NCBI GenBank assembly: GCA_020852255.1
Contig: JADZBD010000005.1
Span: 1-64,000 of the forward strand
Reading direction: 5' to 3'
Source of the DNA: Bacteroidia bacterium
Lineage (GTDB): Bacteria > Bacteroidota > Bacteroidia > JADZBD01
DNA: 64,000 bases
Within the stretch, counting starts at the first letter, position 1; each line of letters starts with the position of its first letter. The notes beneath the pieces are model-generated. The model saw nothing but the letters and a program-made list of their open reading frames with translations, searched no databases and was not told the origin of the DNA. The position numbers were made by a program, and so were the translations under genes. Below, one piece after another: positions 51,423 through 61,584 of this stretch.

Positions 51423-51441
51423 TCCCTATATCTGACAGCCT

Positions 51442-51711
51442 ACTGCCAACTTATTTACTGCCAACTTATTTACTGCCCACTTATTTACTGCCCACTTTTT
51501 TACTGCTCACTTTTTTACTGCCCACTTTTTTACTGCCCACTTTTTTACTGCCCACTTTTTTACTGCCCACTTTTTTACTGCTCACTTTTTTACTGCCCAC
51601 TCCCTTACTGCCAACTTATTTACTGCCAACTTATTTACTGCCAACTCCCTTACTGCCCACTTTTTTACTGCCAACTCCCTTACTGCCCACTTTTTTACTG
51701 CCAACTGCCCA
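51442..51711. repeat. 15-bp tandem repeat, about 18 copies
   Basis: Head-to-tail 15-base units, consensus ACTGCCCACTTTTTT, with variants ACTGCCAACTTATTT, ACTGCTCACTTTTTT and ACTGCCAACTCCCTT. Units run without interruption from 51442; the last is irregular. Variant units are grouped (AACTTATTT at both ends, CACTTTTTT in the middle), suggesting expansion by block duplication. The minus strand stays open through the repeats (VGSKK-type pentapeptide), which follows from the unit being a multiple of three and need not mean coding. Confidence 0.95.
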
Positions 51712-52762: not shown

Positions 52763-52792
52763 AACCCTTCTTTGCAAACGAAGGGTTTTTTT
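52763..52792 (+). terminator. rho-independent terminator of sucD
   Basis: AACCCTTC and GAAGGGTT form an 8-bp stem with a 9-base loop (TTTGCAAAC), followed by a T-run. It lies 22 bp after the stop. Confidence 0.85.
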
Positions 52793-52797
52793 ATGTC

Positions 52798-52906
52798 TGT
52801 AGCTGTGTTACTACATGCCTGTAGCTGCCTTACTACATCGCTTGTAGTTGTTTTACTACATGATTTGTAGTATTATTGCTACATGGTTTGTAGTTGTTTT
52901 ACTACA
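52798..52906. promoter_or_regulatory. array of five TGTAG-N8-CTACA palindromes
   Basis: Five 18-bp palindromes TGTAG-N8-CTACA start at 52798, 52820, 52843, 52866 and 52889, i.e. 22, 23, 23 and 23 bases apart. The N8 spacers (CTGTGTTA, CTGCCTTA, TTGTTTTA, TATTATTG, TTGTTTTA) vary while the arms do not. The array ends 59 bases upstream of a -7-like box and about 96 bases before the start of the large T9SS gene, a position typical for an activator. The same palindrome occurs at 58469-58486 beside a NarL-type regulator. Confidence 0.8.
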
Positions 52907-52965
52907 ATTCGTCTCCCTTACAGGCTCTCCCGTCTAATAAATTCGGCCGGGCAGGATCGCTTGTT

Positions 52966-52973
52966 TATGTTTG
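52966..52973 (+). promoter_or_regulatory. candidate -7 box for the large T9SS gene
   Basis: TATGTTTG fits TAnnTTTG, 29 bases before the ATG at 53003. No good -33 TTG (TTCGG instead), consistent with a promoter needing an activator. Confidence 0.45.
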
Positions 52974-53002
52974 TATTACAGGTAATTACACCATTTAAAG
53001 GC

Positions 53003-56000
53003 ATGCGATTTCTTCCGTTCTTTCTCCTGTTGTTCGCCTGCCTGAACAGCCAGCCTCAATCCATAGCCAATTACAGCAATACACGGTCTACCGGCACGGG
53101 CTATTCTTCCATTTTTTCCACGGCCTTCGCCTTCCCTGCCTGGAGGAACACGGCAACTTATTCTCAGGATGATAACCGATCCTACCCGGTAGAAATAGGT
53201 TTCGATTTCTGGTATAACGGCACCCGCTACACCCAACTATGCGTTTCCACCAATGGGTTCATTGATTTTTCCTCTTCCACCGCCAACGGTACCGGTACAG
53301 GAGCATATGGTTACATAAATTCAGCCTTCACGGGCAACGGTTCCGGCACATGGAACAGCATCGCTCCCGTATACGACGATCTCACCGCGCAGGGCGGAAC
53401 CGATCCGCTGGGTAACAGCATCCGCTACCTGCTCAGCGGAACAGCCCCCAACAGGGTATTCACCATCGAATGGGTGAATATGGCGGTGTACCTGAATACC
53501 TCGCCATCGCTCAACTTTCAGTTAAAACTTTACGAGACCAGCGGAATCATAGAAATGAACTACGGAACCATGACACCCGGTTCCGCCAACTGGAGCTATA
53601 CCTGCGGTATTAATGCCGCCACGCTGAGCAACACCCCAAATGTGAATCAATTAAAAAGCCAGCAAAGTCCGAATTCCAACACCTTCACCAACGGAGAATC
53701 GAATAATCTCACGCCCCTTCCGGTTTCCAATTCACGGATCACTTTCACACCTCCTGTGCCCGCCCCACCCTCCGGTGCACTTTCATTCAGCAGCGTTACT
53801 TCTTCCGGAATGACGCTGAACTGGACCAACTGGGCAGTGAACGAAGTGGGTTACGCGATCTATAAATCAACCAACGGCACCGATTACTTTTTTGTGCAGC
53901 AAACAGCGGCCAACGCCACATCGGCGGCAGTAAGCGGCCTTCTTTCCTCCACCACCTATTACTGGAAAGTAATGGCCGTAACCGAAGGCGCCGTGAGCAA
54001 TGCGCTCAGCGGTACGCAGGCCACCATTTCCGGAGGCATAAAGATCTCGGCACAAACCGGCAACTGGCAGCAGGGAACTACGTGGTCGCCTCCGGGAATT
54101 CCGCAACCGGGAGATGATGTGATCATTAACAACGGACATACTGTAACCGTTAATCAGAGTGTAGATTGCAACAGTCTAACCGTAGGACAAGGAACTTCCG
54201 GCACACTGCAGATCGGAAATAATAATACGGTACGCGTGATGGAAGTAAACGGAAATCTCACGGTGAATTCCGGCGCCTCTCTGATCATCAATTCCGCTTC
54301 GAATACTACGCATCGCATGTTGTTACAAGGCAACCTCACCAACAACGGAACCATTGACCTGAACCGTGATGCCAACAGCAAATGTGATCTCCACCTCATC
54401 GGTACAGGAACACTTACATTCAGCGGAAGCGGAACGGTAAATGATTATAACCGCATCATTGTAAATATGGGAACTTCCATGGCAAACATCATGGAAATGA
54501 CCTGCAGCAGTTTCAGCGCGATCAATGGTTTTCTTTCTCTGAAGAACGGCACGCTGAAAGTTTCCATCCCCTCCTCTGTCACAATGGTTCCCTGGGCGAA
54601 CGGTGGTACCGACACGGTTTACACCAATGGTAAATTCTGGATGAATTCATCTACGGTAACAGCCAATGCCCTCAATACACTGGGATTACTTGGCGCCATC
54701 CGGATAAGTAACGGAATGCTGAATATCGGTGACGGCGCCAATGAAAACCTGATGGTGGTTGGGGGAAGCGTTCAGATCGAGAACGGCAATGTAAATGTTG
54801 CCGGGAGGTATTTTACGAGCGGCATCAATAATATCGCCAATTTCAATATGTCGGGCGGCACACTCACCCTCCCATCGGTAAGTTCTACCTCGAACATAGA
54901 TGCTCCGTTCCAGATCACCGGGGTGGGAAGTAATTTCCAGATGTCGGGCGGAACCATTCTGATTCCGAGGGAAGGCGGAACCGGTTCGGCGAATCTGGGG
55001 TTTGTGAATACAGGATCTTCCGGCGGATCTGTAACGGGCGGTACACTACAGATTGGGAACAGCACTACTCCTCTTTCGCAAACTATTTATATCAACAGCA
55101 GTTTTCCTGTCGGTAATCTGCTTGTGAACTCCGCTAACGCTTCGGCGGTGCTGATCACCAACGCGCTCACCGTTATCCAGAATGTGAACATTGCTGCTGG
55201 AATTTTAAACGCCAACAGCCGCAATATTTCTCTTGGTGGGAACTGGAGTGATGCCGGAACTTTTACCCCCGGTACCGACACTGTATTTTTCAATGGAACT
55301 TCCGGCACCCAGCTTATCATCAACGCATCCGGGGAAACCTTCGACCAGCTTCAGTTCAGCGGAGGCGCTTTGAAAGTGCTGAATTGTGCTGTCAGCACCG
55401 GACGCGACCTGATTATCGGCAGCGGTTGTACGCTGGATGTGAGTGCATCCAACCACTCCCTCTTTGTGAAGGGCAGCTGGATAAACAACGGCACCTTTAT
55501 GGCGCGGGGCGGAACGGTAGAAATGAATGGAACCACTGCCTCCATCCTGGGTGGTAGCACACAAACCACTTTCCGGAACCTTACCATCAGCAACGGCGCC
55601 GGAGCTGCGCTCTCCCAATCCCAGAAACTGGAAGGCACCCTGCTGCTGAACAACGGCACTTTTACCACCACCGGATTTAACTTCACCCTGCTCTCAACAG
55701 CCGCACGCACCGCCCGTATCGGCACTATTACCGGAGGGGATATCGTGGGAAATATCATTATGCAACGCTATGTGCCGAATGCACCAAACGACTGGCGTTT
55801 TATTGCCTCGGCAGTTACCGGCACGCATACCCTGGCAGAATGGTCAGATGATTTCATCATGGCCGGGTTCCCCGGATCTCAGTATCCGAATGACCCGGTG
55901 CCCAGTGTGTGGACCTATGACGAAACGGTGCCCGGCCATAAGGACAGTGGTTTTGTGGCCGCCACAAATATTACCAACCCGGTGGTTAACGGCAAAGGCT

Positions 56001-57817
56001 ACTGGGTATACATGGGACCCACCCCGCTCACAGTAGATATTACAGGGCCTCCCGGAAAATTCAATCACAGTTTCCCCCTGACCTTTACACTTACTGACAT
56101 TAATGATTACGACGGATGGAATCACATAGCGAATCCCTATCCCTCCTCCATTGACTGGGATTCACCCAACTGGAGCCTCACGAATGTGGATAATGAAATT
56201 TCCATATGGAATCCGAACACTCAAACCTATGCCCAGTATTCAGGAGGCGTTCCCATCAACGGAGGAAGCAATATCATTCCCAGCTCGCAGGGATTTTGGG
56301 TTCATGCCAACGCGGCGAATCCGCAACTTATTGTCTCCGAAAACTGTAAGTCTGCTACGGATACAGATTTTATTAAAATCAGTTCCCAGCAATTCACCAC
56401 CACTTACAACAACATACTTCGCCTGACATTAAGCGGTAATAATTACTACGATGAAACCGCGATACGCTTTACGCCCTCTGCTACGGATACCTTTGATGCT
56501 TCGTATGATGCCCATAAATTCTGGAGCCTGAGTTATGATGTTCCGCAGCTATGCACGAACCGGGGCGGACTGGAGTACGGAATTAACGCCCTGCCTGTTC
56601 CCACCCAGCAGATCAGCCTGCCGCTGGGAACCTATATCGGCTGGGGCTACAGCGGCACGTACACCCTGCGCAGAGACAGCACATGGAATCTTCCCAACAG
56701 TATGTGCGTAATTCTGGAAGACCTTCTTACAGGCACCATGACGGACCTGAGAAGCACAATCGGTTACACCACCACGATGTATGATACCATGACGGTTCCC
56801 CGTTTCATTTTACACATCGGGCCGCCCATCCGCAAAGAACGCATACATGTAAACTGCCCGGGCGGAACAAACGGAATGGCCGTTGCAGAAGGCCTGGGAA
56901 GCGGCCCCTGGGATTATACATGGAAGGATGGGAATAACATTGTGCTGCGTCAGGTGAACGCCATAAGCGGACCGGATACACTTCAGAATATCGGCGCCGG
57001 TATTTACACGGTGGAGATCAATGGCAATTCCGGTATCTGCGGTTTTCTGAGTGATACAATACAGGTAGAAGGTCCCCTGGCAATGAATATACTTAGCCAG
57101 GTTACGCATGAAAGCTGCAGCGGAACCGGTGACGGAAGCATACAGATTCTGCAGACGCTGGGAGGAACAGCGCCATATACTTTCCTCTGGTCGAATGCAC
57201 AAAGCAGCCAGAGCATTCAGAACCTGGCAGCCGGAAATTATACCCTTACTGTCACCGATGCCAACGGATGCACACAGAGCTTTTCCTTTACCCTGAACAG
57301 TAACGGCACCGTTGCCTCTGTGTTCAGCATTGCTTCCGACACACTCATACTTGGAAATGCACAGGCTGTATTTTCCAATTACTCCTCCGGTTTTAGTTCC
57401 TTCATCTGGGACTTCGGCGACGGATATCAAAACACCGTTCAGCTGAATCCCGTTCACACCTACACCCAGGCGGGCGTGTACACCGTTAGTCTTACTGTAA
57501 ATACCGTTCTCTGCAGCAGCAGCAGTACGGCCACAGTTATTGTATTGCCGGCCAATATAGGAACCGGCGAAATCGGGGCGTCCGGATTTATCATAAAATC
57601 CATTGATGCCGGAATGTGGGAAATCATTCTGCCTCAGGGACTGGAAGTAAACGCCTGTATGATCACTGATGTACTGGGAAGAACCCTCAGTGCGAATCAG
57701 CTGGAGTGGGTGGGAGTGAAAATAAAAGCAGACCTGCGGAATAGCGCCGCAGGCCTGTACTTCATCCGGCTCCTGACACCGGACGGAGAACGCACCATCC
57801 CCATAGTGCGTGAATAA
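53003..57817 (+). CDS. giant T9SS-secreted multidomain adhesin-like protein
   Basis: A 1604-residue protein. Signal peptide (MRFLPFFLLLFACLNSQPQS); N-terminal beta domain to about 245; fibronectin type III about 250-345 (GMTLNWTNW, VSGLLSSTTYYWKVMAV); a long beta-helix/autotransporter-like region about 360-930 with many Gly-Thr-Leu and Asn-Gly repeats; a region with ANPYPSSIDWDSPNWSLTNV (about 1045); a SprB repeat about 1365-1430 (ESCSGTGDGSIQI, GTAPYTFLWSNAQS, LTVTDANGCTQSF); a PKD domain about 1455-1515 (WDFGDGYQNTVQLNPVHTYT); and a divergent sorting domain at the end. The ATG at 53003 gives the signal peptide. Probably a surface adhesin or matrix protein exported by T9SS. Confidence 0.85.
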   Translation: MRFLPFFLLLFACLNSQPQSIANYSNTRSTGTGYSSIFSTAFAFPAWRNTATYSQDDNRSYPVEIGFDFWYNGTRYTQLCVSTNGFIDFSSSTANGTGTGAYGYINSAFTGNGSGTWNSIAPVYDDLTAQGGTDPLGNSIRYLLSGTAPNRVFTIEWVNMAVYLNTSPSLNFQLKLYETSGIIEMNYGTMTPGSANWSYTCGINAATLSNTPNVNQLKSQQSPNSNTFTNGESNNLTPLPVSNSRITFTPPVPAPPSGALSFSSVTSSGMTLNWTNWAVNEVGYAIYKSTNGTDYFFVQQTAANATSAAVSGLLSSTTYYWKVMAVTEGAVSNALSGTQATISGGIKISAQTGNWQQGTTWSPPGIPQPGDDVIINNGHTVTVNQSVDCNSLTVGQGTSGTLQIGNNNTVRVMEVNGNLTVNSGASLIINSASNTTHRMLLQGNLTNNGTIDLNRDANSKCDLHLIGTGTLTFSGSGTVNDYNRIIVNMGTSMANIMEMTCSSFSAINGFLSLKNGTLKVSIPSSVTMVPWANGGTDTVYTNGKFWMNSSTVTANALNTLGLLGAIRISNGMLNIGDGANENLMVVGGSVQIENGNVNVAGRYFTSGINNIANFNMSGGTLTLPSVSSTSNIDAPFQITGVGSNFQMSGGTILIPREGGTGSANLGFVNTGSSGGSVTGGTLQIGNSTTPLSQTIYINSSFPVGNLLVNSANASAVLITNALTVIQNVNIAAGILNANSRNISLGGNWSDAGTFTPGTDTVFFNGTSGTQLIINASGETFDQLQFSGGALKVLNCAVSTGRDLIIGSGCTLDVSASNHSLFVKGSWINNGTFMARGGTVEMNGTTASILGGSTQTTFRNLTISNGAGAALSQSQKLEGTLLLNNGTFTTTGFNFTLLSTAARTARIGTITGGDIVGNIIMQRYVPNAPNDWRFIASAVTGTHTLAEWSDDFIMAGFPGSQYPNDPVPSVWTYDETVPGHKDSGFVAATNITNPVVNGKGYWVYMGPTPLTVDITGPPGKFNHSFPLTFTLTDINDYDGWNHIANPYPSSIDWDSPNWSLTNVDNEISIWNPNTQTYAQYSGGVPINGGSNIIPSSQGFWVHANAANPQLIVSENCKSATDTDFIKISSQQFTTTYNNILRLTLSGNNYYDETAIRFTPSATDTFDASYDAHKFWSLSYDVPQLCTNRGGLEYGINALPVPTQQISLPLGTYIGWGYSGTYTLRRDSTWNLPNSMCVILEDLLTGTMTDLRSTIGYTTTMYDTMTVPRFILHIGPPIRKERIHVNCPGGTNGMAVAEGLGSGPWDYTWKDGNNIVLRQVNAISGPDTLQNIGAGIYTVEINGNSGICGFLSDTIQVEGPLAMNILSQVTHESCSGTGDGSIQILQTLGGTAPYTFLWSNAQSSQSIQNLAAGNYTLTVTDANGCTQSFSFTLNSNGTVASVFSIASDTLILGNAQAVFSNYSSGFSSFIWDFGDGYQNTVQLNPVHTYTQAGVYTVSLTVNTVLCSSSSTATVIVLPANIGTGEIGASGFIIKSIDAGMWEIILPQGLEVNACMITDVLGRTLSANQLEWVGVKIKADLRNSAAGLYFIRLLTPDGERTIPIVRE

Positions 57818-57823
57818 ACCAGA

Positions 57824-58357
57824 TTATTTAACAGCAGTAGTAACCGGAACGGTGGGTTCAGCCTGGGCAACAAAATTGAGTTGAGCCATGCGAACAAAAG
57901 CCGCATAATCCATATCGTGAGAAAAGAGGCGTGATGCTTCGTTGAAGGCGATCTTTTCATCAGGCATGGAAACCGACTGCGGGTCGTAGGTAACCACATC
58001 GGGAACAAGCTCCACCTGTTTCAGGAGCTGGTAGGCCATTTTCTGACTTACAGAAGCAGGCATCCATGTACTCACACTGAATTTACGGACATGGAAACCC
58101 TCGCTGCTTACAACAATGGTATAGTCCTTATCGCGCTGCAGCCAGAACCGGAAAAAATAGAAGTACTCGGGCTTCTCGGACGAGTACACGCAGGTTCTTC
58201 CATCATAGACTTCCACTTTCGTACCCTTGGGGGTTTTTTTGCCGTAAGTGATGTGAAGGGATACTTCCAGGCATCCGGCATTATTTATGGCATTGTCGCC
58301 GGCCTGGGAGGTTACAGTTCCGATAAGGATGAGTGCAGTAAGGAGAAGCGTTTTCAT
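57824..58357 (-). CDS. small secreted protein of unknown function
   Basis: A 177-residue protein with signal peptide (MKTLLLTALILIGTVTSQAG). The mature start, LEVSLHITYGKKTPKGTKVE then VYDGRTCVY, resembles the small carboxypeptidase-regulatory-like beta domains of Bacteroidota envelope proteins. The rest (PEYFYFFRFWLQRDKDYTIV) continues the beta pattern and ends in a helical tail. It converges with the giant T9SS gene (stops 6 bp apart) and its upstream region carries the same palindrome as that gene, so the two may be co-regulated. Confidence 0.6.
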   Translation of the reverse strand: MKTLLLTALILIGTVTSQAGDNAINNAGCLEVSLHITYGKKTPKGTKVEVYDGRTCVYSSEKPEYFYFFRFWLQRDKDYTIVVSSEGFHVRKFSVSTWMPASVSQKMAYQLLKQVELVPDVVTYDPQSVSMPDEKIAFNEASRLFSHDMDYAAFVRMAQLNFVAQAEPTVPVTTAVK

Positions 58358-58446
58358 GGTATGTTGTTTTTAGGTTTACGATGTGTTTGACAACACAAAG
58401 CAACAACATCCCGTTCCCGTATAAAATAGTAAACCCACAAAAATCA

Positions 58447-58486
58447 TGTAGTAATTTCCCCTCCCTCTTGTAGTAAAATTACTACA
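58447..58486. promoter_or_regulatory. TGTAG-N8-CTACA palindrome plus half-site
   Basis: TTGTAGTAAAATTACTACAA (58468-58487) is a perfect 20-bp palindrome containing TGTAG-N8-CTACA. A second TGTAG half-site begins at 58447, 22 bases to the left, the same spacing as in the array at 52798. It lies about 112 bases upstream of the gene at 57824-58357 and immediately after the response regulator stop. Confidence 0.75.
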
Positions 58487-58487
58487 A

Positions 58488-59117
58488 TCAGATCAGTTTA
58501 TGATCCACCGCGTAATGGGTCATGTCCGCAATCGTCTTGAGTCCTGTTTTCTCCATCACCCTGGCTTTGAAGGTGCTGATAGTGGAAACGCTGAGTGACA
58601 GGTTTTCTGCAATTTCCGAAAGGCTGCAGCCTTTGGCCAGCTGCATCATGGTTTCCAGTTCGCGGGGACTCAGTCCTTCGTGCGGCGCTATTTCCTCGGG
58701 GTTTTCGAGCATCTCCACCAGCTTTTCCGCCAGCTCTGCCGTTATGTATTTTCTTCCGCCCAGGAGGGTCCGGATCGCGTTCATCAGTTCCTTTTCAGAG
58801 GCCGATTTAGAAACATATCCCGAAGCGCCCTGCCGAAGTGATTTCACGGCCACCAGTTCCTCGGGGTGCATACTGTACATAAGGACAGGTACATTTTTAT
58901 CTTCACGTCTGATCTCAGACAGTACCTCCATACCTCCCCGGCCCGGCATATTTACATCCAGGATGATAAGATTCCATTTCCCATTTTGAAAAAGGCGGAG
59001 CGCTTCAGCAGAATCCTCCGCCTCCCTGATGGTAATATCACCCAGCTCATCGGTTAGCAATAGTTTAAGACCCCTGCGGATCGCAGAATGATCATCACAT
59101 ATCAACACTTTCTTCAT
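58488..59117 (-). CDS. NarL/FixJ-family response regulator
   Basis: A 209-residue regulator: receiver domain with acidic pair DD (8-9), phospho-acceptor Asp54 in IILDVNMPGRGG and the switch region ending YVSKSASEKEL; then a LuxR-type helix-turn-helix (LSPRELETMMQLAKGCSLSE, IAENLSLSVSTISTFKARVM). All phosphorylation residues are present. The gene overlaps the upstream histidine kinase by four bases (ATGA). A TGTAG-N8-CTACA palindrome follows the stop and five more precede the large T9SS gene, so it is the obvious candidate to bind them; that is inference. Confidence 0.93.
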   Translation of the reverse strand: MKKVLICDDHSAIRRGLKLLLTDELGDITIREAEDSAEALRLFQNGKWNLIILDVNMPGRGGMEVLSEIRREDKNVPVLMYSMHPEELVAVKSLRQGASGYVSKSASEKELMNAIRTLLGGRKYITAELAEKLVEMLENPEEIAPHEGLSPRELETMMQLAKGCSLSEIAENLSLSVSTISTFKARVMEKTGLKTIADMTHYAVDHKLI

Positions 59118-60562
59118 GCCGCCTGTATTAATGGAACCTTAACAATAAGCAGAGTACCTTCACCCGGAGCAGACTCCACATTAAACTCTCCGTCTATCCC
59201 GGAAGCCCGCTCTTTCATGCCCATCAGTCCGGTGCTGAATTCGTTTTGCAAAACACCCGGTGTGAATCCCCTCCCATTATCGCCGATCACGAGTGAAAGA
59301 TCATTCTCTTCTCTGAATAAAATAAGTTCCATTGCCGTGCAGTCTGAATGTTTAACCGCATTATTCATGGCTTCCTGGCAAATCCGGAAAAGTTCAATGG
59401 AAATTCTCTTATCCACCTTCGCATCCTTCATATTCGTTTCATATTTGATGGGAATACCGGTTTTCCTCCGGAATTCTTCGGCCAGCCAGCCGATGGAGGC
59501 AGACAATCCGAGTGTATCCAGCACACCGGGCCGGAGGTCAGTAGCCACCTTTCTTACACTTTGCATCATCCGGTCCGTTTCCCCGATCAGTTCCTGCACG
59601 GTATCAAGCGCTGCGGAGGCCGTCGCCGGCAGGTGGTTCCTGAGTGAGAAGAGCGAAAGCCGTAACCCGGTTACCTGCTGCCCCAGTTCATCATGGATTT
59701 CGCGTGCCAGCCGGGCCCTTTCCTCTTCCACCACTTTGTTGAGGTGTTTGGAAAAATTCCGTATCCGTATCTCCGCTTCCGTGCTGGCGGTAACATCCAT
59801 GATGCTGCCGACCCTGACCGTATGCCCATCCGTGTCTATATGAAAGGTGGAATCATCCCGCAGCCACTTTTCTGAGCCATCTATCCACCGCACCCTGAAT
59901 CGGTGGCAAAGAAACCTCCCTTCTACATCTGCTTTCCTGTAGGTTTCGAGAAGAACGGGGAGGTCGTCGCGGTGGATGCGGGAAAAGAGAAGGGTATGAT
60001 CTCTGAGCAGCTCCTCCGGTGCGAATCCCCAGATAAAATGTGCATTGTCAGAAATAAAGTCGTACCGCACCTTACCCTGCGGGTTCCGGAGATAACGGTA
60101 CACGAGTCCGGGAATGGAGGAGGTAACTTCTTTCAATATTTGTTTTTCCCTTCTTAGTTCTTCCAAGGCTTCGTTCCTGGACCTCCTGCTTGCGGCCTCG
60201 GCCAGCACCCGGCGGATGATAAAAGGAATTTTAGCCAGGTGATCCGACAGGATATAATCCGTAGCCCCTTCACGTAAGATTTCTGCGGCGTCGCCCTCTC
60301 CGTTTTTATTCACGATGAAAATAACCGGTGTTTCCGGGCAGAAAAAAAGACTCATCTGAAGAATCAGTTTGCCCGAAAATTCTCCCCTCTGGTACTGGGA
60401 AATCACCAGTGCCGGCTCCTGTTCCTCAAGAGCTTGGCGGAACCCTACCAGAGAATCCGCTACCATTATTTCATATCCATGGAACGATTCCCTTAAAATG
60501 GGAACGATCTGTTCCGGCAGTGCCGGGTCCGTAAAAAATACAAGAAAATGCTTCCCCTTCAT
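59114..60562 (-). CDS. hybrid-like sensor histidine kinase (pseudo-receiver, PAS, HisKA_3, HATPase)
   Basis: A 482-residue soluble kinase of the NarX type. Order: an N-terminal receiver-like domain (about 1-125) in which the phospho-acceptor position reads ISQYQRG instead of an Asp and the switch lysine is lost (YILSDHL); a PAS domain (about 150-265, VYRYLRNPQGKVRYDFISDN; FRVRWIDGSEKWLRDD); the dimerisation helix with EERARLAREIHDELGQQVTG (His near 290); and the ATPase domain (EAMNNAVKHSD, GDNGRGF, GLMGMKERA). It has no membrane segment, so it senses a cytoplasmic signal or the state of the receiver proteins upstream. Confidence 0.92.
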   Translation of the reverse strand: MKGKHFLVFFTDPALPEQIVPILRESFHGYEIMVADSLVGFRQALEEQEPALVISQYQRGEFSGKLILQMSLFFCPETPVIFIVNKNGEGDAAEILREGATDYILSDHLAKIPFIIRRVLAEAASRRSRNEALEELRREKQILKEVTSSIPGLVYRYLRNPQGKVRYDFISDNAHFIWGFAPEELLRDHTLLFSRIHRDDLPVLLETYRKADVEGRFLCHRFRVRWIDGSEKWLRDDSTFHIDTDGHTVRVGSIMDVTASTEAEIRIRNFSKHLNKVVEEERARLAREIHDELGQQVTGLRLSLFSLRNHLPATASAALDTVQELIGETDRMMQSVRKVATDLRPGVLDTLGLSASIGWLAEEFRRKTGIPIKYETNMKDAKVDKRISIELFRICQEAMNNAVKHSDCTAMELILFREENDLSLVIGDNGRGFTPGVLQNEFSTGLMGMKERASGIDGEFNVESAPGEGTLLIVKVPLIQAA

Positions 60563-60569
60563 CCCTGCT

Positions 60570-60968
60570 TCATTTTACGGTGTGGCAACGAATTCCCAAT
60601 GCGTCATACAGCGTTTCCTTCTGAATGGGAGACTCCAATACCTTGCTCACACCTGCGGTGAGCAATGCAGGGTGGGAAATTTCTATAGGAGCCGGGGCAT
60701 AACCGATCACCGGCGTACCATTTGGCAGGGCAGAGCGTCCTGAGCGGATCAGTTCGCAGATCTGGCATTTAGGCAATGCAAGATTCAGAAGAAGGAGACA
60801 AACATGAGAGAGATCCGAGCCCATGAAGAATTCAGACAACTCGATGCCGTTCCTAAGGTGTTTGATAAGACAATGAGGTTGGGATGCACGCATCATTTCT
60901 ATCAGACGGGAGGCCTCGCGGGCATCCGGTTCTGCGACCAGGATCAGATGCGATGCATGTTGCTTCAT
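60570..60968 (-). CDS. degenerate receiver-domain protein
   Basis: A 132-residue single-domain protein with the receiver fold: SHLILVAEPDAREASRLIEM, then LLLLNLALPK where the phospho-acceptor Asp is replaced by Asn, PVIGYAPAP, and VLESPIQKETL where the conserved Lys is Ser. It therefore cannot be phosphorylated in the usual way and may act as a constitutive or phosphorylation-independent partner of the kinase 7 bp downstream. Confidence 0.75.
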   Translation of the reverse strand: MKQHASHLILVAEPDAREASRLIEMMRASQPHCLIKHLRNGIELSEFFMGSDLSHVCLLLLNLALPKCQICELIRSGRSALPNGTPVIGYAPAPIEISHPALLTAGVSKVLESPIQKETLYDALGIRCHTVK

Positions 60969-61197: not shown

Positions 61198-61584
61198 TCA
61201 ATTGAGCTGGAAATTATAGGTAAGAGATTTCAGTTCCCTCACATTAAGGGGGTGGGAGATACTACCTTTAAAGAGGGGCAATTCCTCAACTTCCATTTCA
61301 GCGCGGCTGGGAGTATTTCCCTTTTTGAGGATCACCACTTTAAGTCCGAGGGTTTTGCGGAACGGAAGGTTTTTGAGCCATTCCAGGAAATGCATTACGG
61401 AGGCGGAGCGGGTATTTGCGTCAAGAATTACGAGATCGGGGCGATGAGAACCTATAAAGTTCCGCACCGCCCCCTCCCTGGTGGTCTCAACCTCTATATC
61501 ATCCCCAAAGAGCAGCGAACGGCAGATGTCGTACCGGTACTCATTGAGCCGGATCTCATCTGATCCAAGCATGAGGATTTTCAT
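61198..61584 (-). CDS. receiver-like domain protein
   Basis: A 128-residue protein with receiver layout: KILMLGSDEIRLNEYRYDIC, DLVILDANTRSAS (the Asp is present here), LKVVILKKGN and SISHPLNVREL, where the conserved Lys is His. Partly degenerate. Together with the receiver-like protein at 60570 and the kinase's N-terminal domain it makes three non-canonical receivers in one cluster. Confidence 0.65.
   Translation of the reverse strand: MKILMLGSDEIRLNEYRYDICRSLLFGDDIEVETTREGAVRNFIGSHRPDLVILDANTRSASVMHFLEWLKNLPFRKTLGLKVVILKKGNTPSRAEMEVEELPLFKGSISHPLNVRELKSLTYNFQLN

Follow-up and report, generated by a model that had tools for sequence, protein, structure and literature searches.

The nearest known system is GacA/UvrY (BarA-UvrY / GacS-GacA), which the locus described here resembles without being a member. 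The E. coli UvrY box is TGTAAG-N6-CTTACA, with G at base 6. A half-site lies 5 bp after the 18-bp repeat in csrB and 16 bp before it in csrC; UvrY makes contacts near -35 in vivo and activates from such sites (PMC4682653). By our own count, the half-site spacings are 23 (csrB) and 22 (csrC). The targets of GacA/UvrY are small RNAs that bind and sequester CsrA. NarL/FixJ regulators more generally, with NarL, VraR and EvgA as solved relatives, combine a receiver with a GerE DNA-binding domain, as does the regulator considered here. In Bacteroidota, PorXY-SigP of Porphyromonas gingivalis provides two-component control connected with type IX secretion (PMC4800418).

The window analyzed here is a 64,000-nucleotide stretch from a Bacteroidia bacterium (contig JADZBD010000005.1). 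It contains a giant surface-protein gene and a convergent small secreted gene, each preceded by TGTAG-N8-CTACA palindromes, together with a kinase-regulator operon (Table 1). A sequence-only reading had described five palindromes at 22-23-base spacing ahead of the giant gene, and a complete site with a half-site at the same spacing ahead of the small one. Both descriptions are exact: the five sites follow one another at 22/23/23/23, and the half-site keeps phase at 22 bp from its full site. The latter full site occupies the gap between the regulator gene and the small secreted gene.

Like the UvrY box, these sites are 18-bp palindromes with TGTA...TACA ends. The adjacent regulator is of the NarL type and is 33% identical to UvrY over the full length, and the 22-23-bp phase is that of the UvrY half-sites. 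Unlike the UvrY box, the sites read TGTAG[TC]-N6, with T or C rather than G at base 6. In GacA/UvrY the recognition helix opens with PKT; here it starts with Ser, not Lys. In further contrast, the kinase is of the HisKA_3 type and shares an operon with the regulator, there are five full sites rather than one, the -7 box is that of Bacteroidota, and both promoters point to protein genes (ATG 30-39 nt past the -7 box), apparently rather than to CsrA-binding sRNAs. NarL/FixJ regulators in general differ in their operator, and the fixed layout with a half-site in the -33 slot that is seen here is not described in the papers searched. PorXY-SigP reportedly uses an ECF sigma factor to control the secretion machinery, whereas the NarL-type regulator here would act at single cargo genes.

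Table 1. Features of the locus, with positions in the window
Feature	Position	Strand	Remarks
Operator 1 of 5, TGTAGCTGTGTTACTACA	52798-52815	.	Exact pattern match
Operator 2, TGTAGCTGCCTTACTACA	52820-52837	.	22 bp from operator 1; exact match
Operator 3, TGTAGTTGTTTTACTACA	52843-52860	.	+23 bp; exact match
Operator 4, TGTAGTATTATTGCTACA	52866-52883	.	+23 bp; exact match
Operator 5, TGTAGTTGTTTTACTACA	52889-52906	.	+23 bp; exact match
Possible half-site TTACA	52918-52922	+	52 bp before TTTG of the giant-gene -7 box; weak
-7 box TATGTTTG of giant gene	52966-52973	+	No TTG -33 box; fits TAnnTTTG consensus
Giant surface-protein gene	53003-57817	+	1604 aa from 53003; G8-like, fn3, SprB and PKD domains; T9SS-type C-terminal tail
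Small secreted protein gene	57824-58357	-	177 aa; signal peptide; ATG 58357; convergent with giant gene; putative first target
-7 box TTGCTTTG of small gene	58396-58403	-	Conserved layout
ACTATTT element in -33 slot	58424-58430	-	CTAT exactly 30 bp before TTTG; 22-bp phase with operators
Operator half-site CTACA, TGTAGTAA	58447-58451	-	22 bp from full site 58469-58486
Full operator TGTAGTAATTTTACTACA (minus strand)	58469-58486	.	Starts 5 bp past last sense codon of regulator gene
NarL/LuxR-type response regulator, proposed binder	58488-59117	-	209 aa; receiver + GerE; recognition helix begins SVSTISTFK
Histidine kinase	59114-60562	-	REC-like N-terminus, PAS_3, HisKA_3, HATPase_c; operon with regulator

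Pattern searches indicate that the operator is confined to this locus. Across the 3,284,239 bp of the genome (28 contigs), the exact N8 pattern is present in six copies, every one of them here; the N9 form has three copies, none at this locus. Dinucleotide shuffles of the window yield a mean of 0.02 exact sites and a maximum of 1. When up to two mismatches are allowed in the 12-letter form, the genome gives 60 matches against 164 for the reversed-pattern control; the six locus sites rank at the top, and the remaining 54 resemble background. The earlier reading would have been undone had the palindrome been scattered genome-wide at gene ends, and the genome scan it proposed finds no such scatter. 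As all six copies sit at one locus, a dispersed repeat is excluded, and the many gene-end copies typical of a REP-like element are absent. A CRISPR array was considered and rejected: 18-bp repeats with 4-5-bp gaps do not match the ~23-47-bp repeats of such arrays, whose spacers are of similar length. Positions 51441-51706, just ahead of a sucD-like gene (51748), hold 17.7 tandem copies of the 15-bp unit TACTGCCCACTTTTT with 88% matches.

Domain matches above cut-off (PF00072, 9e-29; PF00196, 2e-11) assign the regulator to the NarL/LuxR type and, with those of the kinase, confirm the pair previously recognized beside the palindromes. The two genes overlap by 4 bp. Autoregulation at this locus was rejected, as no site with up to one mismatch precedes the kinase gene; two relatives (G059 and G215) differ in having sites before the kinase-regulator operon. 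Two short receiver-like open reading frames lie upstream of the kinase (60570-60968 and 61198-61584), neither with a Pfam match and the former apparently lacking the phospho-acceptor Asp; they may be part of the same signaling operon. This genome contains 15 matches to NarL-type regulators by receiver or full length, and some relatives contain more than 100 candidates.

The start of the giant gene is most plausibly 53003, which is followed by a signal peptide (MRFLPFFLLLFACLNS), rather than the longest-frame start at 52883, which falls within the operator array. The sequence-only reading called this a T9SS gene. A T9SS-type tail is indeed present, but the sorting domain scores just under the curated cut-offs (22 versus 23 bits in NCBIfam; 20.7 versus 27 in Pfam), and the product is for this reason only a probable T9SS protein. 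The small secreted protein has no Pfam match in a profile search, and a homology search among the genes of the relatives' loci gave only one weak match.

The association of site and regulator extends to relatives. Fifty-three regulator orthologues were collected in 43 genomes of the class; those outside this genome show 36-54% identity. An exact TGTAG-N8/9-CTACA lies no more than 250 bp 3' of the gene in 17 of them, and a site with at most one mismatch in 24. The 13.2 kb just 3' of the regulator contain 17 exact N8/N9 sites, and the rest of these loci, 742 kb in all, also contains 17; in this comparison some sequence is counted twice, since a few loci hold two regulators. Several of the 17 sites elsewhere precede kinase genes. 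In a second set of 69 loci, from 14 genomes within a single order of the class and from genomes drawn phylum-wide, a palindrome with at most one mismatch is found just 3' of the regulator gene in 22. No palindrome adjoins any of 36 other receiver/NarL genes, which include 14 paralogues from this genome. Roughly half of the orthologue loci, or more, lack a recognizable site, and the regulator was not found in one other genome of the same family that was examined. Genome-wide site frequency is 44 in genomes with the regulator and 16 in those without (reversed-pattern controls, 81 and 50); as this difference is modest, it is not the main evidence. The combination of regulator, site and spacing is found again across the phylum Bacteroidota.

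Covariation between protein and operator bears on the identity of the binder. The sample contains 46 regulators with a nearby site, and the residue compared is the first of the recognition helix, which precedes the T[IV]ST motif. Where this residue is Lys, operator base 6 is G in 16 of 17 cases (TGTAGG-N6-CCTACA); where it is not, base 6 is other than G in 28 of 29, mostly T (Fisher p 3e-10; 1e-5 after thinning to <60% identity). On the tree, about two (two or three) residue switches can be placed, and the operator moves along in nearly all pairings; with so few independent switches, a phylogenetic test of the rule is not meaningful. The UvrY helix has Lys at this position (SPKT, compared to SVST here), and UvrY, from outside the phylum, agrees with the Lys/G rule. 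The earlier proposal that the adjacent regulator is the candidate binder is strengthened by the linkage in relatives, the absence of the palindrome beside the 36 other receiver/NarL genes and this covariation.

The promoter layout adds to the earlier account. In relatives, reading from the site toward the next gene, a half-site CTACA stands at +22/23, a CTAT (usually within ACTATTT or ACTAT) at +22/23 or +44-46, and then, exactly 30 bp past CTAT, the TTTG of a -7 box resembling TnnCTTTG. Of 38 sequences, 18 have TTTG precisely 30 bp after CTA[TC], compared to a mean of 0.22 and a maximum of 3 in within-sequence shuffles. Counted from the operator CTACA, TTTG stands at +53 in 11 cases and at +74 to +76 in 9. 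Here, the small gene displays the entire layout, from the full site through the half-site at the 22-23-bp step and the ACTATTT element occupying the -33 slot to the -7 box. It also provides the only match in the genome to CTACA-N17/18-CTAT-N26-TTTG.

The giant gene has the richest row of sites and yet departs from this layout. The -7 box fits the flavobacterial sigma-A consensus TAnnTTTG (PMC9723704); its reported distance of 59 bases from the last palindrome and the lack of a -33 box are both correct. Its TTTG is at +68 from the last CTACA, compared to the conserved +53 or +74-76. The TTACA at 52918 would weakly suit a half-site that precedes a degenerate -33 slot by one step.

In relatives, the genes that immediately follow a site are those of single-domain receivers (PF00072), of the kinase-regulator operon (G059, G215), and of small secreted and T9SS proteins. 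Single-domain receivers with an FFDKS-EFEKIP-like end stand directly behind regulator and operator in many relatives (L142:7237-7635, with matching genes in L180, L182, L186 and L195), which suggests a conserved feedback or branch partner. In the cultured Flavobacterium terrigena DSM 17934 (NZ_FNYA01000002.1, 184001-200000), paired N8 sites with 22-bp spacing precede a kinase gene to which a related regulator (34%) is convergent. Such pairs also lie beside two surface-protein genes, one of 1284 aa with a clear T9SS tail and the other of at least 810 aa. Two candidate -7 boxes there read TATATTTG and lie ~40 bp from the proximal CTAC, so that more than one promoter geometry may be used.

A scan for paired sites across 84,980 species independently recovered the F. 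terrigena locus and two regulator-linked loci (L009, L089) among 88, most of which are unrelated to this system: mycobacteria and Sphingobacterium with other spacings, and dispersed repeats in several MAGs. In many mycobacteria, paired TGTAGTCANNTGACTACA-like palindromes at 24-25-bp spacing (L015, L016, L018 and others) are probably operators of an unrelated regulator. Eight contigs of Chitinophagaceae MAG-381 (L011, L057, L059, L072, L075, L082, L085, L086) carry rows of the related palindrome TGTAGAGAAATCTCTACA spaced at 21-22 bp, which in that genome look like a dispersed repeat or a large regulon. Paired near-perfect palindromes (such as TGTAGTAATTTTACTACA or TGTAGGATAAATCCTACA) at 22-bp spacing occur on several contigs, also outside Bacteroidota: Wallbacteria STB_16 (L027, L050, L069), Desulfobacterota AH_259 (L008, L076) and Loclat_bin-03441 (L007, L083).

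Taken in aggregate, the linkage, covariation and layout argue that the palindromes are very probably binding sites of the adjacent response regulator, which would activate upon phosphorylation by the kinase. If so, the phosphorylated regulator would bind TGTAGT-N6-ACTACA as a dimer, and at each 22-23-bp step a further dimer could sit on the same side of the DNA, presumably cooperatively. At the small gene, the row would end in the ACTATTT half-site, standing in for the missing -33 box. Because this half-site replaces the -33 box, bound regulator is predicted to recruit RNA polymerase to the -7 box, whose TTTG is 30 bp further on. At the giant gene, the longer row of five full sites would probably give a steeper or stronger response. 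The activator claim of the sequence-only reading is thus supported by an operator-like half-site in the -33 slot at a fixed distance from the -7 box, but not by the giant gene, whose -7 box lies off the conserved distance.

The sign of regulation is where a different reading carries most weight. The regulator could instead bind as a repressor, the giant-gene row blocking expression until the kinase removes phosphate; nothing in the sequence fixes the sign, and that row ends well upstream of its -7 box, off activator geometry. This is unlikely: both in relatives and at the small gene, a half-site takes the place of the -33 box, with TTTG at a constant distance of 30 bp, which is the layout of an activator-dependent promoter. 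UvrY, the analogue that has been studied best, likewise acts as an activator at sites of this kind (PMC4682653). Nor does linkage alone name the binder, and another transcription factor co-inherited with the kinase-regulator pair might own the sites. That is quite improbable: the site sequence tracks the recognition helix of the regulator phylum-wide, the UvrY box agrees, and a listing of gene neighborhoods finds no other DNA-binding gene common to the loci. The least credible reading is that of a generic intergenic palindrome (a REP-like element, a transcription terminator or an RNA hairpin) placed here by chance. Dispersed arrays of related palindromes do exist, as in MAG-381 and Wallbacteria STB_16, and the stretch folds strongly as RNA; the folding is uninformative, since any row of palindromes folds well. 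Against it stand the six genome copies at one locus, arm-internal bases left unpaired in most copies, the conserved geometry upstream of a -7 box, and a separate terminator-like hairpin at 52763-52787 after the sucD-like gene.

Regulator-dependent activation thus remains the favored reading. A broader proposal, held tentatively and with slightly less than even expectation, is a promoter class spanning Bacteroidota. In such promoters, NarL-type dimers would line up at 22-23-bp phase, each row finishing with a half-site that substitutes for the -33 box at a distance of 30 bp from TTTG; base 6 would follow the Lys-to-G (others mostly T) rule, and row length would set how switch-like each surface or secreted gene is. 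In the literature searched, which for the most part was open access, neither an operator for this NarL-type group in Bacteroidota nor such a promoter layout was found, numerous as NarL-type regulators are in the phylum. The recurrence of regulator, site and spacing makes an uncharacterized bacterial switch testable. With a defined operator, a template for the promoter, a probable binder and a rule linking residue to base, all supplied by the locus and its relatives, regulons for surface adhesins and secreted proteins could be predicted and tested, in a cultured species as well.
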